From Lentisphaeria bacterium (GTDB lineage: Bacteria > Verrucomicrobiota > Lentisphaeria > Victivallales > UBA1829), in contig JAFXYP010000025.1 of the NCBI GenBank assembly GCA_017541665.1, forward strand, positions 1 to 64,000: a DNA stretch of 64,000 nt, in the 5' to 3' direction. Shown here one piece after another: positions 7,541 through 43,456 of this stretch (position 1 is the stretch's first letter; every line of letters begins with the position of its first letter). Below the pieces are notes generated by a model. The model was not told where the DNA came from. It made no database searches and was given only the letters and a program-made list of their open reading frames with translations. A program made the translations under genes and the position numbers.

Positions 7541-7634
7541 GTGTCCTCGCGAAGCCGGACACTACCTCAGTTGAGGCTCTGCCTCATGTGTCCGAGCGAA
7601 GCCGGACACTACTGCAGTCCAGGACTTGTCCTGG
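7541..7634 (+). repeat. Dispersed hairpin repeat, copy A (alpha-beta-alpha-beta)
   Basis: Alpha hairpin GTGTCC (7541-7546) / GGACAC (7557-7562) with a 10-nt loop. Spacer TACCTCAGT leads to beta hairpin TGAGGC (7572-7577) / GCCTCA (7581-7586). A second alpha GTGTCC (7588-7593), loop GAGCGAAGCC, GGACAC (7604-7609) follows, then spacer TACTGCAGT and beta CCAGGA / TCCTGG (7619-7634). It lies between convergent genes and includes the stop codon of the methyltransferase gene. Confidence 0.9.
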
Positions 7635-9709: not shown

Positions 9710-10287
9710 TCATCTCCTTGTGTCTGCGAGGAATTTCGCGGCTGCGGCGTACAGGATGACCGCGGCGCAGTTCCCCACGTTGATCGACGCCTTCTCGCCG
9801 AACATGGGCAGGCCGACCGTCGCGTCTGCCGCCTCAAGCGCCTCGGGCGAGATCCCGAGCGCTTCGTTGCCGAAGATCAGCGCGACCGGAAAATGGTAGG
9901 GGTACCGCCATGCGTCGACGGACTCCGGGAGCGGTTCGACCGCCAGGACCTCAATGCCGGGCGTCTCCTCGCGGAGCGCGCGGATGGCGTCGAGCGCGGT
10001 CGGGAACGAACGGCTCGGGACCATGGCGTCCGCGCCCATGGCGGTCTTCGCGAGCTTCGGGTGAGGCGGGCATGGCGTGTAGCCGCAGCAGATCACCTCT
10101 TTGGCACCGAGTGCCTCCGCCAGCCGGAAGATGTTGCCGGTGTTGTGCGCGCTGCGGAGACGATCCAAAATGATCGTAATACCAGGTCCCCGTCTCTTGT
10201 GTCCGTGCACAGCCGGGGAGACAAGGTCTCCGCTGCGGCAGTGCCCGGCTTCGCTCGAACACAGGATGCCCGTTTCCTCGCAAACGC

Positions 10288-19195: not shown

Positions 19196-19262
19196 GTGCA
19201 CGAGCGAAAGCCGCGCACTGAATCAGCGCCGCTTGCGGTGCGGCCGCTTGCGGTGCGGCCGC
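19196..19262 (+). repeat. Dispersed hairpin repeat, copy C
   Basis: Alpha: GTGCAC (19196-19201), loop GAGCGAAAGCC, GCGCAC (19213-19218), one mismatch. Spacer TGAATCAGC is followed by a beta-type element in which CGCTTGCGGTGCGGC occurs twice in tandem (to 19260). It lies in the 253-nt gap between tkt and mreC, all on the same strand. Confidence 0.8.
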
Positions 19263-26109: not shown

Positions 26110-26134
26110 TCGTACCGAAGCAATCAATCCCCCC

Positions 26135-26170
26135 GGGGGCGGACGTTCCTGCGTTCGCCTCCCGTTTTTT
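26135..26170 (+). terminator. Intrinsic terminator after the GH97 gene
   Basis: GGGGGCGGACG (26135-26145) pairs with CGTTCGCCTCC (26152-26162) with two wobble pairs, followed by TTTTTT (26165-26170). Confidence 0.7.
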
Positions 26171-26235
26171 ATGCCCGTGCGCCGTTGTGCCGGGCAAGGA
26201 TGTGCCGAAGCTGATCCAACAGCCGGAATGACGCC

Positions 26236-26266
26236 AAAGAAAAACCCGTGCAGTTTCCTGCACGGG
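26236..26266 (-). terminator. Intrinsic terminator facing the GH127 gene
   Basis: A perfect 9-bp stem CCCGTGCAG (26245-26253) / CTGCACGGG (26258-26266) with a 4-nt loop. On the minus strand it is followed by TTTTTCTTT. Repeat copy D lies between it and the GH127 stop. Confidence 0.75.
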
Positions 26267-26286
26267 GGGATTCATTCTATTTTGTA

Positions 26287-26399
26287 CTGTATCGGCGCCG
26301 CTTTGCGGTGTGCCCGAGCGTAGCACGGCACTGTATCGGCACCGCATTGCGGTGTGCGCGAGCGGAGCCGCGCACTACTGCAGTGGAGGCCCTGCCTCC
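26287..26399 (+). repeat. Dispersed hairpin repeat, copy D (four to five hairpins)
   Basis: It holds two beta-type hairpins around GCACCGC/GCGGTGC-like stems and an alpha hairpin GTGCC...GGCAC. The best unit is alpha GTGCGC (26354-26359), loop GAGCGGAGCC, GCGCAC (26370-26375), then spacer TACTGCAGT and beta GGAGGC (26385-26390), CCT, GCCTCC (26394-26399). The copy ends 1 nt from the GH127 stop codon. Confidence 0.9.
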
Positions 26400-26400
26400 C

Positions 26401-29812: not shown

Positions 29813-30092
29813 ATTATAAGACAATCGCCCCTTGAGGCGCGGTTGAGTTCAGAACAGAGGCGGCGTGGCAGTCCCTTCGGGGATCGCTGCGCTCCTCGAA
29901 AGACTCGCTCGCGCTCGGCGTTTTTTTACTTGACCGCGAGACGCGAACAGCAACAATATTATGCAAATACTTTCAGCAGAGTTTCAATAAGACCTAATAG
30001 GACATATATGTCTTATAGTGTAGGATGCTTTTGCAACCGGGGGGAGCCGACGGGACGCGCACACGCGAAATGTGCCGATACCATATGTGTCC
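29813..30092. other. Gene-free stretch with inverted repeats and a repeat fragment
   Basis: No credible gene. It contains a GC/CT-rich patch ending in TTTTTTT (29921-29927). An AT-rich patch follows with the perfect 12-bp palindrome GACATATATGTC (30001-30012), nested in a wider inverted repeat ATAAGAC (29987-29993) / GTCTTAT (30010-30016). A GTGCCGATAC stretch near 30077-30086 matches the long-loop variant of the dispersed hairpin repeat. Confidence 0.5.
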
Positions 30093-31055: not shown

Positions 31056-31142
31056 GGAAGCTGCGCCTCCACTGCGGCAGTGCCGGGCTTCGCTCCGGCA
31101 CACACAAAGTGTGTTGAATAGTGCCGGGCTCCGCTCCGGCAC
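31056..31142 (-). repeat. Dispersed hairpin repeat, copy E (alpha-beta-alpha-beta)
   Basis: On the minus strand: alpha GTGCCG (31142-31137), loop GAGCGGAGCC, CGGCAC (31126-31121). Beta CACAC (31113-31109), TTT, GTGTG (31105-31101) follows. Then alpha GTGCCG, loop GAGCGAAGCC, CGGCAC (31101-31080, sharing base 31101), spacer TGCCGCAGT, and beta GGAGGC (31070-31065), GCA, GCTTCC (31061-31056). The last hairpin abuts the DUF1848 start codon. Confidence 0.9.
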
Positions 31143-41464: not shown

Positions 41465-43282
41465 ATGAAAAAAATCCTGTTCGTTCTGCTCGGTGCGGCC
41501 GCCTTCGGGTTCGTCGCCGCAAGTGTCTTCGCGCCTCTCCCGCTCCACGGGCAGACCGCCGCCCCGGGCCAGTCCGGGAAGGATGCCGACAAGCAGGAGC
41601 CGGACAACGCTCCGATCGTGAAGCTCCAGCTGTTCAAGAACGGCTTCGGATTCGTGACGCGCGAGATCGCGCCGCGCGACTGGAAGGATCCGCTGGTCCT
41701 GAAGCCCGCCATTTCGCCGCGGCACGGCACGTTGTGGTTTGCCCCGGCGGAGACCATCATCCGCCGCACCACCCGCGAGCGCACCATGGTCGAAACCGCG
41801 GCAGCGAAGAAGAACGACATGCCGGGTTACCAGCCGAACTGGTCGAACCTCACCGACGCGTTCGCCTGGCAGCAGGTCACGGTGAAGACCAAAGACGGCA
41901 TCGAGCACACCGGGACCGTGATCGGCAACCAGCAGCCGCAGCAGACGAATGAGGAGCAGAAGATCGAGGTTATCGACACGCTTTCCGCGTACCGTTCCTC
42001 CTCGTCCTCCATCCGTTCCTATTCGTCCGCCGTCCCCGCCGTCCCCGTTAAATCGCCGTTCGGGCAGGTCTTCCTCACGCTGAAGACGGACGAGGGCGAC
42101 TTCCTCACGCTCCGGCAGGAGGAAATCGTGGCGATCCGCGCGAAGCGCATGTCCGACGGCGAATCCCCGGCCGCGAACGCCGAAAAGAAGACGAAGACGA
42201 CCGAGGAAGTGCAGGTCGTCGAAGCGCCGAAGAACCACCTCGGTCCGGTCAGGATGCGCTACCTGTCGCAGGACGTCACCTGGTCGCCGTTCTACCGCGT
42301 GAACCTGAAGGACGACGGCAAGCTCACGATCGACGCGTCCGCCACGATCATGAACAACCTCGAGGACTTCGAGGACACCGAGGTCGAGTTCATCTCCGGC
42401 TTCCCGAATATGGTGTTCGCCTCCTCGCTCTCCGCCCTCTCGAAGGGTATGTCGTTCCAGAGCTTCCTCAACAACCTCGCCAACCCGAGCGAGCCGTCCT
42501 ATCTGCGTTCGAGCAGCGCCCGTAGCGGCGTATTGAGGCAGGCGGAGATGCTGTCCAACAGCGCGGTCTATTACGATATGGAGGAGGACGATGAATATAG
42601 GACGCAGAAGCCCTCCCTGTGGACCGCGTCCGGGATGGACGACATGCAGTACAAGTCCGCCGGCAAGCTCACGATGAAGAAGGGCGACGTGCTCCAGCTG
42701 CCGATCGCGTCCGCCCCGGCGGAATACGAACTCATCACCACCTGGACCGCCCCCATGGAGAAACGTTTTGCCTTCGGCGAGGCGTCCGCCGACGCGACGC
42801 TGTGGAACTGCATCCGCTTCCGCAACCCGTTCGAGTTCGCCCTGACCTCCGCGCCGTACGAGATCGAGCAGGACGGCAACGTGCTCGGGCAGAGCACCGG
42901 CACCTGGTTCGGCACGGGCCAGCTCGCCACGGTCAGGATCACGAAGTCCATGGCCGTGACCGCGACCATGACGCAGGCCGAGAGCGGCAGTCTGAACCGG
43001 TACTACACCGAAAAGAAGTGGGACAACACCTACAAATACCATTACCCGGACGTCACGGCGCAGATCGTGCTCACGAACCACGGCACGAAGCCCGTGAAGG
43101 TGGTCTTCGACTCCGTCTTCTACGGCGAGCTCGTCGAGGCTGACGGCGAACCGAAAAAGGCCCGGCTGCTGACGGACAACCGGACGCGGAACCAGAAAAA
43201 CAAGCTGACGTGGGAAGTCACGGTACCCGCATCCGACAAGACCACGCTTAACTACACCTACAAGGTCATCCTGGATAACTAA
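41465..43282 (+). CDS. Secreted DUF4139-type protein
   Basis: 605 residues with a signal peptide (FVLLGAAAFGFVAASVFA). The body resembles the DUF4139/mucoidy-inhibitor-A group: LQLFKNGFGFVTREI near the N-terminus, then RMRYLSQDVTWSPFYRVNL, and a C-terminal beta-domain (NKLTWEVTVPASDKTTLNYT). A Ser-rich linker (YRSSSSSIRSYSS) divides the halves. It is probably periplasmic or surface-located; molecular role unknown. Repeat copy F begins at the last base of its stop codon. Confidence 0.72.
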   Translation: MKKILFVLLGAAAFGFVAASVFAPLPLHGQTAAPGQSGKDADKQEPDNAPIVKLQLFKNGFGFVTREIAPRDWKDPLVLKPAISPRHGTLWFAPAETIIRRTTRERTMVETAAAKKNDMPGYQPNWSNLTDAFAWQQVTVKTKDGIEHTGTVIGNQQPQQTNEEQKIEVIDTLSAYRSSSSSIRSYSSAVPAVPVKSPFGQVFLTLKTDEGDFLTLRQEEIVAIRAKRMSDGESPAANAEKKTKTTEEVQVVEAPKNHLGPVRMRYLSQDVTWSPFYRVNLKDDGKLTIDASATIMNNLEDFEDTEVEFISGFPNMVFASSLSALSKGMSFQSFLNNLANPSEPSYLRSSSARSGVLRQAEMLSNSAVYYDMEEDDEYRTQKPSLWTASGMDDMQYKSAGKLTMKKGDVLQLPIASAPAEYELITTWTAPMEKRFAFGEASADATLWNCIRFRNPFEFALTSAPYEIEQDGNVLGQSTGTWFGTGQLATVRITKSMAVTATMTQAESGSLNRYYTEKKWDNTYKYHYPDVTAQIVLTNHGTKPVKVVFDSVFYGELVEADGEPKKARLLTDNRTRNQKNKLTWEVTVPASDKTTLNYTYKVILDN

Positions 43283-43456
43283 CACGCTGCGTGTGCCGAT
43301 ACAGTGCCTTGCCTCGCAACGGCACACCGCAAGCGGTGCCGATACAGTACTCTGCTTCGCAACGGCACGTGCTCTCGCGTAGCGGAGCACAACTCGACAC
43401 ACTCTGTGTGTGCGCGAGCGGAAGCCGCGCACCTTTACAGTGGAGGCTTCGCTTCC
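43282..43456 (+). repeat. Dispersed hairpin repeat, copy F (longest copy)
   Basis: In order: beta ACACG-CTG-CGTGT (43282-43294). Next come two long-loop alpha variants GTGCCG...CGGCAC, whose loops share GATACAGT and TTGC/TTCGCAA, separated by a beta with ACCGC-AA-GCGGT. Then alpha GTGCTC...GAGCAC, beta ACACAC-TCT-GTGTGT, alpha GCGC-GAGCGGAAGCC-GCGC, and spacer CCTTTACAGT. The last element is beta GGAGGC (43442-43447), TTC, GCTTCC (43451-43456). It lies between two plus-strand genes. Confidence 0.9.

Follow-up and report, generated by a model that had tools for sequence, protein, structure and literature searches.

A two-hairpin repeat found in several copies in the 64,000-nt stretch of Lentisphaeria DNA analysed here (the window) is, in the reading that we favour with some reserve, a genus-restricted, non-coding interspersed element similar to the REP/BIME repeats, which probably multiplies as folded single-stranded DNA and is then subject to slippage and decay. 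Anatomy, copy number, restriction to one genus, gain and loss between species, placement 3' of genes, local arrays and a few target duplications are directly observed. In the mechanism proposed to connect them, the unit, in which two unlike hairpins, alpha and beta, lie on either side of a common short spacer, would most likely multiply in a folded single-stranded DNA form, with a putative enzyme supplied in trans, or the replication fork, acting on the hairpin pair. New copies would survive chiefly behind stop codons, and the inserted units would undergo local expansion and contraction by slippage, with the 42-48-bp period of the arrays, followed by decay.

In each unit the alpha hairpin is followed by a 9-nt spacer ending in CAGT (typical form, T-NNNN-CAG(T)) and by the beta hairpin. 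Alpha conforms to GTGNNNG-(A)-GC-loop-GC-CNNNCAC, with a 9-bp stem interrupted by one bulged base (A in 149/183), a 3-4-nt loop fitting GNA or GNNA in 80 of 91 copies sampled without the core pattern, and a pyrimidine at its 5' side in 96% of the cases. The first-pass annotation had correctly recognized this hairpin, but the stem of about 6 bp and the 10-nt conserved loop that it described need to be replaced with the longer, bulged stem and the smaller loop. Beta has a 5-7-bp stem, of the GGAGGC/GCCTCC, CACCGC/GCGGTG or CACAC/GTGTG types, and a C(NN/NNN)G loop, C(TT)G-like; it is found 3' of alpha in 87% of the cases, as opposed to 11% with shuffled downstream sequence. Energy folding of four units returned the described structure with both DNA and RNA parameters, the RNA fold being also stable. 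GNA and GNNA loops closed by two G-C pairs correspond to the rule established for extraordinarily stable, nuclease-resistant DNA mini-hairpins (PMC4686876). Nine of the 19 GNNA-type tetraloops break the GNRA rule of RNA. With such a strict GNA/GNNA apex this may be, to our knowledge, the first repeat family in nature for which use of an extra-stable DNA mini-hairpin is proposed. Units are arranged head-to-tail with a period of 42-48 bp, or as inverted pairs with the betas outward (adjacent units: direct, 99; inverted with betas outward, 22; inverted with alphas outward, 5). Alpha and beta classes combine freely, so that the element is a mosaic.

All six copies that had been noticed in the window were found at their positions (table 1), and the fragment reported near 30077 turned out to be a spacer and a beta hairpin lacking alpha. 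The makeup of the last copy had to be revised: the 43282-43456 region is an inverted composite, with a minus-strand pair of units preceding a plus-strand pair and the betas pointing outward.

Table 1. Copies of the two-hairpin repeat in the window.
Feature	Positions	Strand	Alpha hairpins
Two direct alpha-beta units	7541..7634	+	7541-7562, 7588-7609
One alpha-beta unit	10217..10262	-	10241-10262
One unit, then duplicated beta half	19196..19262	+	19196-19218
Leading beta and two units	26287..26399	+	26310-26331, 26354-26375
Fragment: spacer and beta, without alpha	30055..30084	-	
Two units ending at the DUF1848 gene start	31056..31142	-	31121-31142, 31080-31101
Two minus-strand units	43282..43368	-	43304-43325, 43347-43368 (degenerate)
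Two plus-strand units	43369..43456	+	43369-43390, 43410-43432

The genome is a 2.6-Mb draft in 87 contigs, 77% complete. A covariance model of alpha and spacer, the search initially recommended, identified 148 alpha hairpins in it (E<=1, nearly all <0.02), which group into approximately 75 sites by our own count. By comparison, blastn with a single copy as the query gave 46 matches, the core GAGCGNAGCC occurs 108 times versus 29 for the reversed control, and an in-house profile scored 49 alphas over 836 kb but not one once the sequence had been reversed. In genome G000, two-hairpin arrays lie at the extreme ends of contigs C34, C39, C49, C60 and C83, so that assembly probably stops at the repeat, whose copies are then under-counted. 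Among 100 genomes of the order, match numbers are at or near saturation in 12 of the 13 genomes of the genus, that is, in 11 of the 12 sister species. The element was not found in G006, which belongs to the same genus and is 94% complete, nor in any of 23 genomes from further genera of its family, and a single weak match was obtained in one of the remaining 64 genomes of the order. The named carriers are uncultured rumen Lentisphaeria/Victivallales (RUG555, RUG10770, RUG11954, RUG12414, RUG12541, RUG14783, Tb.RUG.336, RGIG3616, RGIG6757, RGIG6930 and RGIG10120). When 84,980 species were scanned with a pattern, the matches listed comprised this genus and three others, Ventrousia, Cupriavidus and Marinospirillum, in which stem pairing is lacking, so that they were attributed to chance. 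No match to the element was present in the viral contigs, phages and plasmids searched, none reached the gathering score in Rfam 15, and no description of such repeats was found in the literature on Lentisphaerae or Victivallales.

The absence of Rfam, phage and plasmid matches agrees with the repeat not having been recognised initially as a named REP, ERIC or MITE family; it does resemble the REP/BIME kind. REP/BIME repeats form stem-covarying subfamilies and are located downstream of ORFs (PMC3733652), and the present element shares with them short palindromes in high copy number, the position downstream of ORFs with few copies in divergent regions, the stem-covarying subfamilies, the alternation of two kinds of palindromes in arrays, and the inverted pairs. 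It differs in the GNA/GNNA mini-hairpin loop, in the dominance of head-to-tail arrays, in the long target duplications seen at a small number of insertions, in that no RAYT was found, and in the tag. An unpaired GTAG/CGTC was never observed directly 5' of alpha (0/254); on the reverse strand, and by counting the closing G of the stem, alpha is preceded by GTAG in 78 of the 254 cases and by GCAG in another 71, so that the motif, GYAG with its last base engaged in the closing pair, is at best a degenerate tag. In E. coli group 2 REPs both the bulge and the GTAG motif are needed by TnpAREP (PMC8266576), and the conserved bulge in the alpha stem and the short motif next to the hairpin base parallel these needs, although here the motif is degenerate and no TnpAREP is found in the genus. 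The Stenotrophomonas REP is GGTAGTGCCGGCCGCTGGCCGGCA (PMC2817692); the reverse strand of alpha often starts with GTAGTGCCGG and ends with CCGGCAC, but the bulge, the GNA/GNNA loop and the alternation with beta set it apart, and the likeness is likely convergent. TIR-type MITEs and IS derivatives have terminal inverted repeats and a short target duplication of fixed length, in place of the few duplications, from 21 to approximately 60 bp, found here. Since no RAYT was found to go with the likeness to REP/BIME, the repeat is named REP/BIME-like only, rather than a RAYT-mobilised REP: a genus-restricted variant of the REP/BIME kind.

That the element is mobilised in trans by the TnpA of IS200/IS605 elements, or by a RAYT that has since been lost or was not assembled, is suggested by its REP-like features, namely the hairpin, the bulge and the degenerate GTAG-like motif, and by the presence of IS200/IS605 genes in some members of the genus, two of the matches being cut off at a contig end. 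A search of the genus, of the kind proposed in the first-pass annotation, gave no REP-associated transposase and none that tracks the repeat, nor was a RAYT (PF01797) gene flanked by the repeat found, in draft metagenome assemblies in which the absence of a gene is no proof. Y1 transposases are lacking in G003, G005, G007, G009 and G011, among which G005, G007 and G011 are 92-93% complete, and those of G000, G001, G004 and G012 are ordinary or fragmentary IS200/IS605 genes (L253 at the end of G000:C5, L256 at the end of G001:C59, L254 and L255) with no adjacent two-hairpin copy. A Y1 transposase was thus discarded as the tracker of the element, being absent from several carriers and unaccompanied by the element where present. 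Mobilisation by these enzymes in trans is, on these grounds, unlikely, if still worth considering; the lack of a tracking Y1 transposase also weighs against the favoured explanation.

Covariation of the stems is strong. In the seed alignment 31 cells are changed on both sides of the stem versus 9.7 in shuffled alignments, and among 115 distinct sequences, in an alignment fitted to the model, 110 versus 25, with shuffles that ignore the relatedness of the copies. The signal exceeds every shuffle and is lost when the pairing is slid by one to three columns, and chiefly reflects differences among a small number of stem classes (CCC/GGG, CGC/GCG, TCC/GGA and CCG/CGG). Such excess bears out the covariation by which selection on the fold was originally suggested, but not selection acting on each resident copy: at orthologous sites of sister species 19 unit comparisons yielded two fully compensated pairs versus nine changes with a mismatch. 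Most of the changes at orthologous sites disrupt or mispair a base pair and go uncompensated, so that individual copies do not strictly retain the structure, and the folded form probably matters during multiplication and not at every resident copy. In our preferred reading, structure would be selected while the element multiplies, and resident copies would drift. Against the favoured explanation, G.T pairs (23) barely outnumber A.C pairs (14) in the stems, so that the choice of the strand is weakly supported. It might alternatively be argued that stem covariation stems from template-switch correction of imperfect palindromes with no structural selection, as the two fully paired changes in the 19 comparisons of orthologous units would allow; however, such correction should tend to erase asymmetries, and the bulge (A in 149/183) and the GNA loop persist, making this origin improbable.

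Placement was analysed in 836 kb picked regardless of the element, except for the window itself, with crude gene calls and a masked stretch in one contig. Sites are intergenic in 28 of 31 cases (13 '>>', 6 '<<', 8 '><' and 1 '<>', with 3 inside a called ORF), and 18 of the 19 sites between tandem genes are closer to the upstream stop than to the downstream start. One of the 28 intergenic sites is in a divergent context, versus 61 of 405 intergenic regions. The window site at 10217 is among the three inside ORFs, where the gene start may be mis-called. Orientation relative to genes is unbiased, and no clear link with GC skew, indicative of a replication-strand bias, emerged in the two contigs scored. 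No T-tract was found 3' of beta, and an intrinsic terminator was rejected on this basis.

With gene identities of about 80-95%, sites can be compared among sister species, and presence, absence and copy number vary at one and the same site. The window copy at 31056 is absent at the same site in eight sister species; site 10217 is empty in several of them, contains a remnant in G004 and is filled in others, in some with the opposite orientation. The loci of G011 and G007 orthologous to 31056 (L206 and L207) contain an unrelated insertion of approximately 170 bp with inverted ends (CTATTCATT...AATGAATAG), which looks like another MITE. Around the 26287 copy (window 26110-26400), conserved flanking blocks fall on separate contigs in several of the sister species, placing the element at a rearrangement breakpoint. 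Copy number also changes in place at syntenic sites, and arrays are near-identical inside one site and unlike between sites, which suggests that they grow through local slippage. At L183:1190-1330 (G004) the element is tandemly repeated together with approximately 30 bp of flank.

A resident RNA device in the 3'-UTR, stabilizing mRNA 3'-ends or acting as an attenuator and selected at each site, would be consistent with the vicinity of stop codons, the covarying stems and the stable RNA fold, the last of which also counts against the favoured explanation. However, copies are found in both orientations relative to transcription with no T-tract after beta, they are often absent in sister species, their orthologous stem changes are mostly uncompensated and their loops depart from GNRA, so that such a function appears doubtful. 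The GNA/GNNA loops and the conserved bulge, along with the lack of an orientation bias, rather speak for folded single-stranded DNA as the relevant form.

At least three insertions were accompanied by target duplications, as proven by empty sites in sister species: one of 28 bp at L168 (empty site in G004), one of 41 bp around an inverted pair at L170 in G007 (single copy in ten other genomes), and one of approximately 60 bp in G012, where a Fur-like gene ends, with G007 and G009 providing single-copy empty sites. G001 shares the junction of this last case, with a diverged left copy. At the 3' end of the Fur-like gene in G003 (L313) the duplicated gene end is still there and the element is gone, an apparent case of element loss. 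A 21-bp duplication at L087 is putative. The duplicate begins where beta ends, at a CC in the target; extra bases, variable in number, are present on the 5' side, and in three cases the duplication keeps the gene end readable. Elsewhere, filled alleles at young sites lack 20-30 bp that are present in the empty one. An 18-mer flanking L079 and L136 was rejected as a target duplication, being part of another repeat; a second repeat, CGCGCTAGTTTCAGTTAAAACAAACTCCTTTTAACTGAAACTAGAG, is present on both sides of two-hairpin copies in two species (L079:7290-7560 and L136:4090-4300). Only a handful of the approximately 190 sites show duplications; degenerate duplications are not in excess, nor are flanking direct repeats of 5-14 bp. 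Insertion with a long target duplication may, therefore, be a minority route. Duplications of 28, 41 and approximately 60 bp are not predicted by IS200/RAYT chemistry, a further point against the favoured explanation.

A defined 3' end, target duplications of variable length and junction microhomology are features of SINEs and other target-primed insertions. The present element shares all three, with microhomology in four cases. If a strand ending in the beta hairpin templated synthesis at a nicked target, variable duplications and 3' junction microhomology would follow, in agreement with the four duplications starting at the beta end, the empty sites available for three of them and the uneven 5' extra bases. 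Yet no reverse transcriptase tracks the element: RVT_1 occurs in 7 of 13 genomes and is absent from five carriers (G000, G007, G008, G011 and G012), and was discarded as the tracker on this basis. Moreover, most copies lack a duplication, and no source copy emerged for the one leader tested, that of L087, which has no second copy in 12 genomes; a second leader gave ordinary element matches only, so that transduction of a 5' source flank is unsupported by either. SINE-like insertion is, thus, clearly improbable. Equally speculative is the idea of a non-autonomous bacterial element inserted by priming at a target nick, with the folded beta end as its 3' terminus and duplications of 20-60 bp, through an enzyme other than a Y1 transposase or a standard reverse transcriptase; if true, it would amount to a SINE analogue in bacteria or to a new chemistry of insertion.

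Among the models for the spread of REP-like repeats, the favoured one requires a RAYT. The genus offers an abundant and recently moving REP/BIME-like family for which no RAYT was found, together with filled and empty sites, the element-free lineage G006 and insertions with long duplications, so that comparison of its genomes could identify the mobiliser.
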